A DNA stretch of 64,000 nucleotides from Aquibaculum arenosum (GTDB taxonomy: Bacteria > Pseudomonadota > Alphaproteobacteria > Kiloniellales > DSM-21159), in the NCBI RefSeq assembly GCF_029222965.1, contig NZ_JARHUD010000003.1, forward strand, positions 186,001 through 250,000. Reading direction: 5' to 3'. The translations under genes and the position numbers were made by a program. The notes below the pieces were generated by a model. It was given only the letters and a program-made list of their open reading frames with translations, was not told the origin of the DNA and made no database searches. Within the stretch, counting starts at the first letter, position 1. Every line of letters starts with the position of its first letter. Positions 2 through 47,846 of this stretch are shown piece by piece.

Positions 2-760
2 GTGCCGCTGTTCGAACGCCCGAACGACCTGGTCGAGGTGGACCTGCGCGATTTCCGCGCCGACCTGCCGCCGGAACGGCTGGTTGGCCATGTGGATAAC
101 GGCCGGCTCAAGCCCTATCCCGAACGTGCCGCGATCGAGAACGGCCACCTCGCCGGGCAGGAGGCGGAACTGCTTTGGGTCAGCGACCCGGTCGATGCCT
201 TCTTCCTGCACGTCCAGGGCTCGGGGGTGGTGCAGCTGGACGACGGCCGACGGCTGCGGGTCGGTTTTGCCGGCTCTAACGGACGGCCCTTCTATGCCAT
301 TGGCCGGGCCCTGATCGACGAAGGCATCATCGAGCGCGAACGCAGCTCCATGCAGGCGATCCGCGACTGGCTGCGCGCCAACCCGGATCGGGCCGAAGCG
401 CTGATGCACCGCAACGAGCGTTTCATCTTCTTCCGCGCCATCGACGGTGAGGGACCCATCGGGGCTCAAGGCGTGGCCCTGACGCCCGGGCGTTCCCTGG
501 CGGTCGACCCGGAAGAACTGCCACTCGGCGCCCCGCTCTGGCTCGAGACCACCTGGCCGGCCAGCGACCAGCCCTTGCAGCGGCTCATGGTGGCGCAGGA
601 TACCGGCAGCGCGATCAAGGGCGTCGTGCGCGGCGACTTCTTCTGGGGCAGCGGCGAGGCCGCCCTGGAGCAGGCCGGTCGCATGCGCCAGCAGGGCCGC
701 TACTGGCTGCTGCTGCCGCGCAGCGTGGCCGAGCGCCACGCCAGCACCTCCCAGCGTTGA
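2..760 (+). CDS. mltA: MltA lytic murein transglycosylase (3' part)
   Basis: Membrane-bound lytic transglycosylase A cleaves peptidoglycan glycan strands to 1,6-anhydromuropeptides at the outer membrane. About 252 C-terminal residues are visible. The first half is the MltA barrel (LLWVSDPVDAFFLHVQGSG). The end is the 3D domain with its conserved Asp run (AQDTGSAIKGVVRGDFFWG), which carries the catalytic aspartate in the family. The frame is open at the window edge, so the GTG at base 2 is probably not the real start and the signal peptide lies outside. A palindromic repeat begins directly after the stop codon, before nnrU. Confidence 0.93.
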   Translation: MPLFERPNDLVEVDLRDFRADLPPERLVGHVDNGRLKPYPERAAIENGHLAGQEAELLWVSDPVDAFFLHVQGSGVVQLDDGRRLRVGFAGSNGRPFYAIGRALIDEGIIERERSSMQAIRDWLRANPDRAEALMHRNERFIFFRAIDGEGPIGAQGVALTPGRSLAVDPEELPLGAPLWLETTWPASDQPLQRLMVAQDTGSAIKGVVRGDFFWGSGEAALEQAGRMRQQGRYWLLLPRSVAERHASTSQR

Positions 761-813
761 TTGCATTGGATTTGAAACCACGAGGTTTCAGATCGAATGC
801 GTTCGGGTTTAGA
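761..813. repeat. Palindromic repeat, B module only
   Basis: Arms at 763-779 and 784-800 match at 15 of 17 positions around a 4-nt loop (ACGA). The arm end GAAACC/GGTTTC and the tail GAATGCG..TTTAGA match the repeats at 9521-9572 and 45591-45654. It starts on the base after the mltA stop codon and fills most of the gap before nnrU. It is a shortened member of the family: the leading GGATTCACGC stretch and the ATCCGGTCTA end are degraded. Confidence 0.75.
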
Positions 814-824
814 CTGCCGGCGCC

Positions 825-1517
825 ATGCTGGACATAAACGAACTCCTTGCCGCGACCGTGCTCTTCGTCGGCGGCCACCTGCTCCTCGCCAGTGCGCCGC
901 TGCGCGGCCTGCTGCACGGCAAGCTGGGCGCGACCGGGTTCCGTATCCTCTATTCCCTCGTGGCCGTCGTCACCCTGGTCTGGATGATCAAGGCCTACAC
1001 CCAGGCGCCCTTCGTGCCGCTCTGGGCCTTCGTGCCGCTGCTGGACTGGGTGCCCCTGCTGGTCATGCCCATCGCCTCGATCCTCCTGGTCGCAGGGGTC
1101 ACCACAACCTCCCCGACTGCCGTGGGCAGTGAATCGGCCGCCCTGGCAGCCGATCCGGCGCCGGGAATCCTGCGGGTCACCCGTCATCCCTTTCTCTGGG
1201 GCACGGCGCTCTGGGCCATCAGCCACCTGCTGGCGCGGGGCGATCTGGCCAGCCTGGTGATGATGGGCGGCATCCTGGCGCTGTCCCTGCTGGGCATGAA
1301 GCAGATCGACCGCAAGCGCGAACTGCAGCTCGGCGCCGGCTGGGGACCGGTGAAGCTCACCACATCGCTGCTGCCCTTCCAGGCCATCGCGGAAGGCCGT
1401 ACCGAGATGGATTGGCCGGGGATCGGCTGGTGGCGCCCGCTGCTGGGCATCGCGCTCTACCTGGCCTTCATCATCCTGCACCCCTGGATCTTCGGCGTCC
1501 CGGCCGTGCCCTTGTAG
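825..1517 (+). CDS. nnrU: NnrU family membrane protein
   Basis: A 230-residue polytopic inner-membrane protein of the NnrU family. The family was named from denitrification loci, but its biochemical role is unsettled; it is related to isoprenylcysteine methyltransferase-like/methanethiol S-methyltransferase membrane folds. About six hydrophobic segments are visible, with the family signature RVTRHPFLWGTALWAISHLL near residue 118 and the LARGD that follows. No nitrite or nitric oxide reductase genes are nearby, so a denitrification role here is not supported. The ATG follows the repeat after mltA, and murJ starts 33 nt downstream. Confidence 0.85.
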   Translation: MLDINELLAATVLFVGGHLLLASAPLRGLLHGKLGATGFRILYSLVAVVTLVWMIKAYTQAPFVPLWAFVPLLDWVPLLVMPIASILLVAGVTTTSPTAVGSESAALAADPAPGILRVTRHPFLWGTALWAISHLLARGDLASLVMMGGILALSLLGMKQIDRKRELQLGAGWGPVKLTTSLLPFQAIAEGRTEMDWPGIGWWRPLLGIALYLAFIILHPWIFGVPAVPL

Positions 1518-1550: not shown

Positions 1551-3146
1551 ATGCTGCTCCGCGCCTTCGCCACCGTCGGTTCGCTCACCGCCGTCAGCCG
1601 CGTGCTCGGCTTCATCCGCGACATCCTGATGGCCGCGGCGCTTGGCACCGGGCCGGTGGCCGATGCCTTCTTCGTCGCCTTCCGCTTTCCTAATCTCTTC
1701 CGTCGTCTCTTCGCCGAGGGCGCCTTCAACGCCGCTTTCGTGCCGCTCTTCGCGACGCGGCTGGAGCGTGACGGCAAGGCGGCGGCCAAGGCCTTCGCGG
1801 AGCAGGCGCTGGCGGCACTGACGGCCGCGGTGCTGCTGCTCACCGCGCTCTGCTTGCTGGCCATGCCCTGGCTGATGCAGGTGATCGCACCGGGCTTCAC
1901 CGACGACCCAGAGCAGTTTGCCCTGGCGGTGGAGCTGACCCGCATCGCCTTTCCCTACCTGCTGGCCATGGCGCTGGTGGCGCTGCTCTCCGGTGTGCTG
2001 AACGCGCTCTATCGCTATGCAGCGGCGGCGGCCGCGCCGATCCTGCTCAACCTCTTCTTCATCGCCGCCATCATCTTGGTGCTGCCGCACTTTCGCGATG
2101 CGCCGGGACAGGTACTGGCCTGGACGGTCTGCCTGGCCGGGCTGGGACAGCTGCTGCTCCTGCTTTGGGCGGCCAAGCGCGCCGGCATGGCGCTGCGGAT
2201 GCCGCGCCCGCGCCTGACGCTGGAGATCCGCCGCTTGTGGCGACTCATGCTGCCGGGCGTCGCCTCGGCCGGGGCCATGCAGTTCAACCTGCTGGTCGGC
2301 ACCATGATCGCCACGCTGCAGGCCGGTGCCGTCTCCTACCTCTACTACGCCGACCGGCTGTACCAGCTGCCGCTCGGCATCATCGGGATCGGCATCGGCG
2401 TGGTGCTGCTGCCGGAGCTGGCCCGCAAGCTGCGCGCGGGTCGGGACGATGAAGCCCACAGCAGCCTGAACCGCGCGCTCGAGTTCTCGCTGCTGCTCAC
2501 CCTGCCGGCAACCGCAGCCTTGCTGGTGGCGCCCTTCCCGATCATCTCGGTGCTGTTCGAACGCGGCGCCTTCGATGCCGAGGCGGCACGCCTGACTGCC
2601 TGGGCGCTCGCCGCCTTCGCCATCGGGCTTCCGGCTTATGTCCTGGTTAAGGTCCTGCAGCCGCCCTTCTTCGCCCGCGAGGACACGGTGACGCCGCTGC
2701 GCTTCGCGCTGGCTTCGGTGGCGGCGAACCTGATCCTCAGCCTGCTGCTCTTCTTCACCATCGGGTTTGTCGGCATCGCGCTGGCAACCGCGCTCTCTTC
2801 CTGGCTGAACGTGCTACTGCTCGCCGGGCGCCTGCGCCGGCGGGGCTTTCTGCACTTCGATGCCCGTTTGCGCCGACGGCTGCCGCGCTCCTTGGCCGCC
2901 GCACTGGCCATGGCACTTGCGCTCATTTTGCTCCAACCCCTGCTGGCTGATCTCTTTGCCGGCGGCGAGATTGAACGCATCCTCGCTTTGGCACTTCTGG
3001 TGATGGCAGGCGGTGGGCTCTATTTTCTTCTGGCCTTCGCCCTGCGCGCGGTCGAGCCGGCCGATTTCCGTGCCGCCTTCCGGCGCAAGACCACAAGCGG
3101 CGACGGCGATCAATCGCGTAATGAGAACCGCCCGCGAAAGGCTTGA
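1551..3146 (+). CDS. murJ: MurJ lipid II flippase
   Basis: This integral membrane protein flips the peptidoglycan precursor lipid II across the cytoplasmic membrane. At 531 residues it has the usual family length, with about 14 hydrophobic helices. The N-terminal MurJ/MviN signature VSRVLGFIRDILMAAALG is followed by the DAFFVAFRFPNLFRRLFAEGAFNAAFVPLF block. In many alphaproteobacteria murJ is followed directly by trpS; here a cobalamin riboswitch and four btu genes lie between them. The candidate btu promoter overlaps the last codons and the stop of this gene. Confidence 0.97.
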   Translation: MLLRAFATVGSLTAVSRVLGFIRDILMAAALGTGPVADAFFVAFRFPNLFRRLFAEGAFNAAFVPLFATRLERDGKAAAKAFAEQALAALTAAVLLLTALCLLAMPWLMQVIAPGFTDDPEQFALAVELTRIAFPYLLAMALVALLSGVLNALYRYAAAAAAPILLNLFFIAAIILVLPHFRDAPGQVLAWTVCLAGLGQLLLLLWAAKRAGMALRMPRPRLTLEIRRLWRLMLPGVASAGAMQFNLLVGTMIATLQAGAVSYLYYADRLYQLPLGIIGIGIGVVLLPELARKLRAGRDDEAHSSLNRALEFSLLLTLPATAALLVAPFPIISVLFERGAFDAEAARLTAWALAAFAIGLPAYVLVKVLQPPFFAREDTVTPLRFALASVAANLILSLLLFFTIGFVGIALATALSSWLNVLLLAGRLRRRGFLHFDARLRRRLPRSLAAALAMALALILLQPLLADLFAGGEIERILALALLVMAGGGLYFLLAFALRAVEPADFRAAFRRKTTSGDGDQSRNENRPRKA

Positions 3147-3172
3147 CCGGGCACGAGCACCTCGGCCACACT
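3143..3172 (+). promoter_or_regulatory. Candidate sigma-70 promoter of the btu operon
   Basis: TTGACC at 3143-3148 is followed after 18 nt by CACACT at 3167-3172. A start near 3179 would place the transcript 5' end right at the cobalamin riboswitch. The -35 box overlaps the murJ stop codon (TGA, 3144-3146). The -35 is good and the -10 weak; position is the main support. Confidence 0.4.
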
Positions 3173-3180
3173 CCGCGCCG

Positions 3181-3353
3181 CCGACGGTGCCCGCAAGGGC
3201 CCGAGAGGGAACGCGGTAGGAGTCATCCGAAGCCGCGGCTGCCCCCGCAACTGTGAGTGGCGAGCCAGCACCCAAACATACCACTGGGCGGACAAGCCTG
3301 GGAAGGTCGGGTGCGGGCCGGGACCCACGAGCCAGGAGACCTGCCGTCGGCAC
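3181..3353 (+). promoter_or_regulatory. Cobalamin (B12) riboswitch
   Basis: Class I cobalamin aptamer ahead of btuB. Hallmarks in order: GAGAGGGAACGCGGT near 3203, GCTGCCCCCGCAACTGTGA at 3238-3256, a CCACTGG B12-box element near 3282, GGGAAGG near 3300, and AGCCAGGAGACCTGCC at 3330-3345. The outer helix can form between GGTGCC (3186-3191) and GGCAC (3348-3352). It should lower btuBFCD expression when adenosylcobalamin is plentiful. About 250 nt of structured leader follow before the btuB start, so control may act on translation or through Rho. Confidence 0.93.
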
Positions 3354-3397
3354 GGAGTCGCGCACGAGCGCATCGGACGGGGGTGCCGGTGTCGAAC

Positions 3398-9490: not shown

Positions 9491-9572
9491 GCTCTAGTTG
9501 TTTGAAACTAGAACAGATTTACGCATTTAATTTGAAACCTTGTGGTTCAAATTGATTTCGATCCGGTCTAGG
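9491..9572. repeat. Palindromic repeat with degraded A module
   Basis: The B module spans about 9511-9572. AATTTGAAACC and GGTTCAAATT pair around a TTGT loop, the same loop as the 45591-45654 copy. The left end is AGAACAGATTTACGC and the right end GATCCGGTCTAG. Upstream, CTAGTT (9494-9499) and AACTAG (9506-9511) form a second small palindrome in the place of the A module of the composite copies. Confidence 0.8.
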
Positions 9573-20563: not shown

Positions 20564-21127
20564 ATGTCCGACGAACAGTCTTCCTCACAATCCGTGTCCT
20601 GGCACGGCACCACCATCCTCTCGGTGCGCAAGGGGGGAAAAGTGGTGATCGCTGGTGACGGCCAGGTGAGCTTCGGCCACACCGTCATGAAGTCCAACGC
20701 CCGCAAGGTCCGCCGGCTCGGCCGCGGCGATGACGTCATCGCCGGTTTCGCCGGCGCCACCGCCGACGCCTTCACGCTCTTCGAGCGGCTGGAAGGCAAA
20801 CTGGAGAGCCATCCAGGCCAGCTCCTGCGCGCCTGCGTTGAGCTGGCCAAGGACTGGCGCACCGACCGCTACCTGCGCCGCCTCGAGGCCATGATGGCCG
20901 TGGCGGACAAGGACCATTCGCTGGTGCTCACCGGCAACGGTGACGTGCTGGAGCCCGAAGACGGGCTCATCGGCATCGGCTCCGGCGGCAGCTATGCGCT
21001 TTCCGCCGCGCGCGCACTGGTGGACATCGACAGCCTCGACGCCGAGGCCATTGCCCGCAAGGCCATGGGCATCGCAGCAGGGATCTGTATTTACACGAAT
21101 GACAACGTCACACTCGAAAGCCTCTGA
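20564..21127 (+). CDS. hslV: ATP-dependent protease subunit HslV
   Basis: Proteolytic core of HslVU, 187 residues. Self-processing at HG/TT would expose Thr16 as the catalytic nucleophile ([13 protein letters not shown]). The Lys of [13 protein letters not shown] and the domain [16 protein letters not shown] are intact. The ATG at 20564 was chosen because frames upstream run through the promoter. Its 3' end overlaps hslU by 29 nt in a different frame. Confidence 0.96.
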
Positions 21128-22466
21128 AGCCCCCGCTCCGGAAGTCACCGGCGCCTACGCCTTCAGCCCGCGCGAGATCGTTTCCGAGCTCGACCGCTAC
21201 ATTGTCGGCCAGCGCGAGGCCAAGCGCGCCGTCGCCATTGCGCTGCGCAATCGCTGGCGCCGGCAGCAGCTGCCCGACGATCTGCGCGACGAGGTGCTGC
21301 CCAAGAACATCCTGATGATCGGTCCCACCGGCGTGGGCAAGACGGAGATCGCCCGCCGGCTGGCCAAGCTGGCCCAGGCCCCCTTCCTCAAGGTGGAGGC
21401 CACTAAGTTCACCGAGGTGGGTTACGTGGGCCGCGACGTGGAATCGATCGTGCGCGATCTCGTGGAGATCTCGATCCACATGACGCGCGAGCGCCTGCGC
21501 AAGGCGGTGCGGGCCAAGGCTGAGCTAAACGCCGAATCACGTTTGGTGGATGCCCTTGTGGGCGCCAACGCCAGCCAGGAAACCAAGGACAAGTTCCGGC
21601 GCATGCTGCGCGACGGCAAGCTGGGCGACCGCGAGGTCGAACTGGAACTCCAGGACAGCGGCGGCATGCAGATGCCGACCATGGACGTTCCCGGCATGCC
21701 CGGCGCCCAGATGGGCATGATCAATCTGAACGACATCTTCGGCAAAGCCTTCGGCAACCGCACCCGCAAGCGCAAGGTGACGGTGGAAGACAGCTACGAC
21801 CTGCTGATGGCCGAGGAGAGCGACAAGCTGCTGGACGAAGAGCAGGTGGTCAGCGAGGCCATCGCCGCCGTCGAACAGAACGGTATCGTCTTCCTGGACG
21901 AGATCGACAAGATCACCGCCCGCTCCGACCAGCGCGGCGGTGCCGACGTCAGCCGCGAGGGCGTGCAGCGCGATCTTCTGCCGCTGATCGAAGGCACCAC
22001 CGTGGCCACAAAGCACGGGCAGGTGAAGACCGACTTCATTCTTTTCGTGGCGTCCGGCGCCTTCCATCTCGCCAAGCCGGCCGACCTGCTGCCGGAGTTG
22101 CAAGGCCGCCTGCCGATCCGTGTCGAGCTCTCCGCCCTCTCGCGCGAGGACTTCAAGCGCATCCTCACCGAGCCGGAGAACTCCCTGATCCGTCAGTATC
22201 GGGCTTTGATGGGAACTGAGGAGGTCGAGCTGGTCTTCTCCGACGAGGGCATCGAGGCCTTGGCCGACTTGGCCGCGGAGATCAACTCTACGGTCGAGAA
22301 CATCGGGGCACGCCGGTTGCACACGGTGCTGGAGAAGTTGCTGGAGGAGATCTCCTTCACCGCAAGCGACCGCGGCGGTGAGCGCATCGAGATCACGCCC
22401 GACATGGTGCGCGAGCGTGTCGGCATCCTCTCCAAAGACGCCGACCTCTCGAAGTTCATCCTCTAG
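21099..22466 (+). CDS. hslU: HslU unfoldase ATPase
   Basis: AAA+ ATPase that unfolds substrates and feeds them to HslV, 455 residues. Walker A is [17 protein letters not shown], Walker B is [12 protein letters not shown], and the C-terminal tail LSKFIL inserts into HslV. The intermediate (I) domain spans about 115-250. The ATG at 21099 lies inside the hslV end (29-nt overlap), giving coupled translation. A composite palindromic repeat begins 1-2 bases before the stop codon ends. Confidence 0.96.
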
Positions 22467-22603
22467 AGCAGATCGACTCAAATCGGGTTCGCGAAGCGAA
22501 CCGGTTTGAGTCGTGAATCTGCTCTACACCCTTAATTCAGAGCGGATTCACGCGTTTGTTCTGAACGCTGCGCGTTACAGATCAAACGCGATCTACTCTA
22601 GGG
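22465..22603. repeat. Composite palindromic repeat (A + B modules)
   Basis: Module A (22467-22525): AGCAGATCGACTCAAA pairs with TTTGAGTC..ATCTGCT, with an inner GTTCGC/GCGAAC hairpin. Module B (22540-22600): GCGGATTCACGC leads into GTTTGTTCTGAACGC paired with GCGTTACAGATCAAAC around a short loop, ending CGCGATCTACTCTAG. It lies between the hslU stop and the convergent merR gene and may act as a two-way terminator. It has the same layout as 45518-45654, with different arm bases. Confidence 0.85.
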
Positions 22604-36026: not shown

Positions 36027-36103
<77 letters not shown>

Positions 36104-44753: not shown

Positions 44754-45476
44754 ATGGCACGACTGGCACTGGTCACCGGCGGCACCCGCGGTATCGGCGA
44801 GGCAATCTGCGTCGCCTTGAAGGACGCCGGCTACAAGGTGGTCGCCAACTACGGCGGCAATGACGAGGCGGCCCAGGCCTTCACCGACCGGACCGGCATC
44901 CCCGCGGTCAAATTCGACGTATCCGACTTCGAGGCGGTGAAGAGTGGTATCGAAAAGATCACCGCCGAACACGGCCCGGTTGAGGTGCTGGTCAACAACG
45001 CCGGCATCACCCGCGACACCACGATCCACAAGATGACGCCGGAGCAGTGGCAGGCGGTTATCGACACCAATCTGACCTCCTGCTTCAACCTCTCGCGCTG
45101 CGTGATCGAAGCCATGCGCGCCAAGGGCTTCGGGCGCATCGTCAACATCGGCTCGATCAACGGCCAGGCCGGACAGTATGGCCAGGTGAACTACGCCGCC
45201 GCCAAGTCAGGCATCCACGGCTTCACCAAGGCGCTGGCCCAGGAAGGCGCGGGCAAGGGCATCACCGTCAACGCCATCGCCCCCGGCTACATCGCGACCG
45301 ACATGGTGCGCGCCGTGCCGGCCAATGTGCTGGAAAAGATCGTGGCGCGGATCCCGGTCGGGCGTCTGGGTGAGGCGGAGGAGATTGCGCGCGGCGTGGT
45401 CTTCCTGGTGGCCGACGACGCCGGATTCGTCACCGGCTCCACCCTGTCGATCAACGGCGGCCAGCACATGTATTGA
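44754..45476 (+). CDS. phaB: NADPH-dependent acetoacetyl-CoA reductase
   Basis: Short-chain dehydrogenase of 240 residues that reduces acetoacetyl-CoA to (R)-3-hydroxybutyryl-CoA for polyhydroxybutyrate. NADP motif TGGTRGIGEAICVALK, NNAGITRD, catalytic Ser-Tyr-Lys in GSINGQAGQYGQVNYAAAK, and the PhaB-type GYIATDMVRAVP are all present. GAGGAGG precedes the ATG at 44754. phaA and phaC are not in the window. A composite repeat separates it from uvrB. Confidence 0.92.
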   Translation: MARLALVTGGTRGIGEAICVALKDAGYKVVANYGGNDEAAQAFTDRTGIPAVKFDVSDFEAVKSGIEKITAEHGPVEVLVNNAGITRDTTIHKMTPEQWQAVIDTNLTSCFNLSRCVIEAMRAKGFGRIVNIGSINGQAGQYGQVNYAAAKSGIHGFTKALAQEGAGKGITVNAIAPGYIATDMVRAVPANVLEKIVARIPVGRLGEAEEIARGVVFLVADDAGFVTGSTLSINGGQHMY

Positions 45477-45517
45477 TCCGCCCGCCGGCAAGAGCCGGCG
45501 CGGCCAACCAGGCCTTA

Positions 45518-45650
45518 GTGCAGATCGCGTCCAACGGGAATCGCTTTGCGATCCAAGTAGAACGCGTGAATCTGCACTATCTTTTTGGTGTTAGACCGGA
45601 TTCACGCATTCAATCTGAAACCTTGTGGTTCAGATTGAATGCGATCCGGT

Positions 45651-45654
<4 letters not shown>
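45518..45654. repeat. Composite palindromic repeat (A + B modules), best copy
   Basis: Module A (45518-45579): GTGCAGATCGCGT opens and ACGCGTGAATCTGCAC closes it, with GGGAATCGC/GCGATCC inside. Module B (45591-45654): 11-bp terminal repeats TTAGACCGGAT and ATCCGGTCTAA enclose a hairpin with arms 45606-45622 and 45627-45642 and loop TTGT. It fills the gap between the stops of convergent phaB and uvrB, so it may stop transcription from both sides. Confidence 0.88.

Positions 45655-47846
<2,192 letters not shown>

Follow-up and report, generated by a model that had tools for sequence, protein, structure and literature searches.

Between the convergent genes phaB and uvrB, the window (the whole 64,000-nucleotide stretch of the Aquibaculum arenosum genome analysed here) carries a full-length copy of a dispersed palindromic element whose copies appear to enter TA dinucleotides and to lie, unexpectedly often, exactly in stop codons. 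Taken as a whole, it is probably a non-autonomous palindromic MITE of the CIR/RIME kind, targeted to TA and mobilised in trans by what we infer to be an IS630/Tc1-mariner-type transposase. Comparison of the copies clearly indicates dispersal, insertion at Y-TA-R and separate insertions at one shared site in this and a sister species.

Architecture of the element

Two side-by-side modules at 45518-45654, and the same plan at 22465-22603, had been proposed in the first-pass annotation, and both are present with the exact limits given in Table 1. The element consists of two inverted copies of one unit around a short linker (12 bases in copy 1). The unit, with module B read on the minus strand, opens with a stem beginning TAG and then GATC; a hairpin of variable sequence, a TGA bulge and ATC follow in that order before the stem closes. 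Folding against dinucleotide shuffles gave z-scores of -9.8 and -12.1 for the two strands of copy 1 and of -11.7 and -11.0 for those of copy 2, whose best fold also pairs its two ends; in each of the four folds, none of 200 shuffles folded as well. From 24 units we built a covariance model, R1 (66 positions, 28 pairs), in whose building alignment 83.7% of the cells are paired, 17 of the 28 pairs have changed on both sides, and covariation reaches 0.366 versus 0.160 in shuffles. When partner columns were shifted by one to three positions, pairing fell to 15-44%. The further claim that no ORF lies inside holds for predicted genes and fails for mechanical frames: a 115-aa ORF (45473-45820, plus strand, TTG start) spans copy 1, and the coding-potential script calls no gene for it. 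Besides the two full-length copies, the window contains a degenerate remnant and a half copy, the latter intergenic between two tandem genes and with its GANTC lost (TAAATC in unit orientation).

The TGA bulge and the following ATC create GAATC, a GANTC (CcrM) site. Among the 126 modules with scores of 45 bits or more, 112 keep GANTC at the bulge (44/54 in the own genome, G000; 36/36 in the sister species, G001; 8/8 in G010; 24/28 in G015), a count somewhat favoured by R1 having been built from units with the motif. Since pairing gives no reason for a bulge to be conserved, recognition by a protein is likely, and the conserved GANTC bulge is a likely candidate for the recognition site. The genome encodes a methyltransferase with a RAMA domain (Table 1), for which the best family is CcrM (NF050803) at 622.7 bits, below the 830 cut-off.

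Table 1. Coordinates of the element copies, their parts and the neighbouring genes (window positions unless a locus is named).
Feature	Position	Strand	Basis or remark
Copy 1, full-length two-module element, 134 bp	45518..45651		covariance model R1, modules 67.9 + 84.3 bits
Copy 1, left TA (target duplication)	45516..45517		sequence
Copy 1, right TA (target duplication)	45652..45653		on the minus strand, supplies the TA of the uvrB stop
Copy 1, module A, unit forward	45516..45579	+	TA included
Copy 1, linker, 12 bp	45580..45591		read from sequence
Copy 1, module B, unit of module A inverted, different apical hairpin	45592..45653	-	TA included
GAATC (GANTC, CcrM-type site), bulge of module A, copy 1	45568..45572	+	
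GATTC (GANTC), bulge of module B, copy 1	45599..45603	-	
uvrB stop TAG	45651..45653	-	TA duplication + first G of element
uvrB ORF	45651..47846	-	TIGR00631/NF003673
phaB/phbB-like acetoacetyl-CoA reductase	44754..45476	+	TGA stop
Copy 2, full-length two-module element, 133 bp	22466..22598		TA at 22464-22465 and 22599-22600
hslU stop TAG at boundary of copy 2	22464..22466	+	flanking TA + first base of element
hslU	21099..22466	+	start from coding-potential script; mechanical ORF starts 20940; TIGR00390 441/441
Half copy, one module + linker remnant	9508..9572	-	R1 65.5 bits
Degenerate remnant	759..802	-	blast match alone; absent from covariance-model matches at E<=0.01
CcrM-like DNA methyltransferase, RAMA domain	L147 625-1797, contig C23		about 25 kb outside the window, same contig

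Dispersal and target site

Searching the whole 3,488,018-base genome with R1 returned 116 rows at E<=0.1, opposite-strand shadows included. In 60 fetched loci 131 rows were obtained at E<=0.01, and removal of 56 of them (opposite-strand shadows and duplicates of locus L107 in L141) left 75 modules, which assemble into 56 elements for the 3.49-Mb genome: 19 two-module elements in the order +-, none in the order -+, 18 single + and 19 single - modules. When 39 genomes of relatives and the own genome among them were searched at E<=0.001, R1 matched 18, again counting the own one, with 95 rows in the sister species, 134 in G015 and 116 in G021; in a class-wide draw under stricter filters, 20 of 289 genomes, again with the own one, matched at E<=1e-5. 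A strict end pattern, TAGAGC-N2-GAT...ATC-N2-GCTCTA, occurs in 6 of the 289 genomes of the class and its reversed control in none; it omits the window copies, which have one free base at that place instead of two. Among the units listed, some in G002, G116 and G262 keep the ends, GATC and the TGAATC bulge with different inner stems, those of G312 are without the bulge, and the one of G283 has TGGATC instead. Relatives of the element are scattered patchily over the Alphaproteobacteria, in other genera and families. A blastn search of the element against plasmids gave no match. In one locus of the own genome (L141), two single units at 1201-1252 (+) and 2176-2241 (-) face inward about 1 kb apart, which may represent a composite or chance.

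The ends were analysed in 50 of the 52 full-length copies from four genomes (L277 and L296 were excluded), and 30 of them retain TA on both sides, in answer to the proposal of the first-pass annotation that target-site duplications be looked for. In these 30 copies the base before the TA was tabulated as C in 20, T in 7, G in 2 and A in 1; both G resulted from a misplaced left TA (L263 and L273), and correction by hand gives Y in 29/30. The base after the TA is G in 20, A in 9 and C in 1, that is, G or A in 29/30. These counts point to Y-TA-R, mostly CTAG, as the target, with TA duplicated, the duplication being deduced from the flanks of the copies themselves rather than by alignment with an empty site conserved on either side. 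A 4-bp duplication of CTAG was considered and rejected: the first left base and the last right base vary independently, from which it follows that the duplicated part is the TA within Y-TA-R and not four bases. One intergenic copy (L228:7874-8014) is missing at the aligned place in the sister species, where divergence between the genes prevents the duplication from being read. For copy 1, a search with the C-terminal half of UvrB found relatives of at most 82% identity and no sister species, and the sister species G001 offers no empty site, as phaB and uvrB lie there on different contigs. Judged by its phaB gene, the genome is similar to Azospirillum.

Insertion at stop codons

Because the element begins with G, its insertion into the TA of TAA or TAG still yields a stop, TAG. 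Mapping to gene ends, as had been suggested, revealed that the element boundary coincides exactly with the stop codon of a neighbour in 9 of the 19 full-length copies of the own genome and in 10 of 17 in the sister species, two of whose stops are now TAA; the corresponding figures are 3/12 for G015 and 0/4 for G010. The loci of these three other genomes are the best-scoring R1 matches, and some reach contig ends without a neighbour. The same exact coincidence was found at 5 of the 18 loci read in the six genomes with the strict end pattern. To judge whether the proteins that end at an element are complete, 19 of the 24 obtained from 26 loci (all but L281 and L291) were compared with their best NCBIfam profile, and 13 of the 19 reach within 9 positions of the profile end. 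The untruncated proteins include HslU (441/441, twice), LepA, ClpB, RlmD and glutamate-cysteine ligase. Profile coverage rules out C-terminal truncation by the TAG of the element for these 13; among the other six, two are without a family match and four are uninformative. Insertion into a stop codon thus appears to rebuild the stop and leave the protein unharmed. A search of titles and abstract beginnings, mostly from outside the subscription literature, found none on stop-codon insertion of such elements, and the nearest case, as far as the text of PMC5896051 was available, is one QMITE2 copy at enhC.

The coincidence might simply reflect target preference, as non-genic TA, and CTAG in particular, is scarce in a GC-rich genome and stop codons would supply much of it. 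We regard this account as possible, though on balance improbable. In a first background, stops indeed make up 7.8% of the available TA, 11.9% of YTAR and 20.7% of CTAG. However, when stop and non-coding TA sites were matched by target class, 16 of the 30 TA-keeping full-length copies from the four genomes lay exactly in a stop codon versus 4.3 expected (P=3.5e-7). The background pool for this expectation is small (67 stop TAs and 770 non-coding TAs, largely near elements and from the author's own gene caller), and neither the genomes nor their gene calls are fully independent. Within these bounds, stop codons hold many more copies than the availability of TA predicts.

The hslU gene, present in 38 of 39 genomes at the cut-off used, allows one site to be compared across species. 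Among the 30 loci read, its stop is TAG in 22, TAA in 7 and TGA in 1. A full element lies at the hslU stop both in A. arenosum (copy 2) and in the sister species G001, in opposite orientation, so that two independent insertions must have occurred. In the other 28 loci R1 found no element at the stop, and its rows there with E of 0.02-0.24 fall, with one exception, at a single recurring position other than the stop. A third candidate came from G012, of another family of the order, where two strong hairpins (L380 2362-2460; fold z -4.5, 1/200 shuffles as good) start with TAGAGC at the hslU TAG. R1 does not match them, its sole row in L380 (E 0.07) lying within coding sequence at a place that R1 also matches in other loci, and the case was accordingly set aside as a resemblance only. 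A stretch of L366 folded alongside was discarded as a control, since that locus runs in the other orientation and the stretch does not correspond to the 3' end of hslU.

Kinship, mobilisation and rival explanations

The first-pass annotation recognised no named family, which agrees with Rfam: at the gathering score nothing matches at the elements. In the window Rfam gives only a cobalamin riboswitch (3168-3362, RF00174, 106 bits) and a tRNA gene (36030-36103, minus strand, RF00005). The kind, in contrast, is already catalogued, since CIR is known from Caulobacter and Brucella and RIME from rhizobia, and it is in kind alone that a catalogued family matches. By analogy we place the element with the CIR/RIME-type palindromic MITEs, CIR being compared by description only. 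In the available parts of PMC2229807 and PMC10969869, CIR has two arms, a linker, GANTC and TA termini. Like the present element it is intergenic, with two hairpin arms around a linker and a conserved GANTC, and it occurs in alphaproteobacteria with CcrM. It differs in length (about 110 bp versus 134 bp here) and in the place of GANTC, which in CIR lies at or partly in the terminal loop of one arm; here both arms carry it in a bulge next to their outer stem. The target duplication is entered as "?" for CIR in the table of PMC2229807 and is TA here.

The RIME comparison was made on the replicon pSymB of S. meliloti (1.68 Mb), where a hairpin core was found at 18 places (L394-L411) and the reversed-pattern control at none. 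We label these elements RIME1-like; the annotation of the pSymB record does not carry that name. Many of them share the TAG..CTA plan, and the better-preserved ones resemble our element more fully: two palindromes lie between the ends YTAG...CTAR, and the linker contains GAATC. Three of the 18 supply the stop of a neighbour at the element end, and a fourth (L398) is ambiguous. The likeness does not extend to sequence as seen by R1, which matches none of the 18 cores (best E over the core region 0.36, in L396; best E in 50 kb of pSymB 0.14). Away from any such core, L401 783-825 on pSymB gave an R1 match with E 9.5e-5 (24.5 bits).

Among other families, RUP, Correia/NEMIS and ERIC are tabulated in PMC2229807 as TA-duplicating bacterial MITEs, of which only RUP is tied to an IS630 element in the available text. 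They share a length of 100-200 bp, TA termini and target duplication with our element, which differs in its two separate hairpin arms and CcrM-type site and in that no source IS was found. Br-REP1 and Br-REP2 of Bradyrhizobium are likewise alphaproteobacterial 3'-UTR palindromes, and their consensuses contain GAATC/GATTC, but their units are shorter and the available text of PMC5082802 describes neither a target site nor stop-codon insertion. QMITE2 of Coxiella is a MITE found mostly in 3' untranslated regions, and its enhC copy adjoins the stop (PMC5896051, PMC10969869); it gives an in-frame extension of the protein or is preceded by an indel-derived stop, and general rebuilding of stops is not described in the parts of these papers available.

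The first-pass annotation had left the element as MITE- or REP/BIME-like. The MITE part is borne out by the 56 elements, the relatives in other genera and families, the TA duplication and the opposite-orientation insertions at one site, whereas a strict REP/BIME moved by a RAYT (Y1 tyrosine) transposase is very improbable. Such repeats are also intergenic and palindromic, form inverted pairs of modules and often sit at 3' ends. The units here are, however, about 66 bp long, and the REP-associated transposase that had been proposed as a check was not found: PF01797 (Y1/RAYT) has no match in the genome, whereas 5 of 14 controls searched in the same way, Caulobacter included, gave one. Nor is TA duplication expected of Y1 single-strand transposition. 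It is also unlikely that the element is primarily a selected structural feature of 3' ends, a bidirectional terminator or an mRNA-stabilising hairpin, with mobility secondary. The very stable folds on both strands and the compensatory changes in the stems would suit such a role, as would the enrichment at convergent sites, where 8 of 18 full-length copies lie (L089, without a right neighbour, was excluded) compared with 9 of 60 gene pairs in the window (p=0.013), an enrichment that overlaps with the stop-codon effect. Yet the two-way terminator postulated earlier was not borne out, as neither window copy has a terminator-like site (0 intrinsic terminators, defined as GC hairpin plus T run), and single modules account for 37 of the 56 elements. 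Of the 30 hslU loci, moreover, 28 have no element behind the gene that R1 can find. Finally, 4 of the 18 copies lie between divergent genes, which makes a 3'-end function possible but unneeded. Likewise, the idea that these are a few copies confined to this genome gives way before the number of elements and their relatives elsewhere.

The reading we prefer, a CIR/RIME-kind MITE mobilised in trans, fits a TA-duplicating and CTAG-preferring insertion, for which an IS630/Tc1-mariner-type transposase is suited. The IS630 family duplicates TA (PMC2170065), and its CTAG preference is indicated by the title of a paper cited in that article. A TA-specific DDE transposase of this type, now absent or undetected here, would cut and paste the element in trans; the own genome has no match to DDE_3 (PF13358), and no IS with matching ends was found. 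The CTAG-like target may account for one part of the stop-codon bias and the purging of harmful insertions for another, to which a real choice of target possibly adds. The GANTC bulge would be a recognition feature, and methylation by CcrM could gate it to the replication cycle. Once inserted, the element would be mainly a harmless, very stable hairpin at a 3' end.

A broader proposal, which we consider rather doubtful, is that CIR, RIME and this family are class-wide miniature transposons homing to stop codons, with G-first ends kept for regeneration of the stop and with the GANTC bulge tying transposition to replication through CcrM. In this proposal all three share the ends TA-G...C-TA, which in our family and several others read TA-GAGC...GCTC-TA, and stop codons would be an evolved safe harbour of the element class and no by-product. 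For CIR-type repeats, target duplication and mobility were listed as unknown in the review PMC2229807 (2007), and this family supplies the target: what is new is Y-TA-R with TA duplicated, together with independent insertions at the same stop in two sister species. Rebuilding of the stop by the end of the element would explain simply why these insertions are largely harmless. The results further point to the type of transposase to be sought, and open the function of the conserved CcrM site to experiment.
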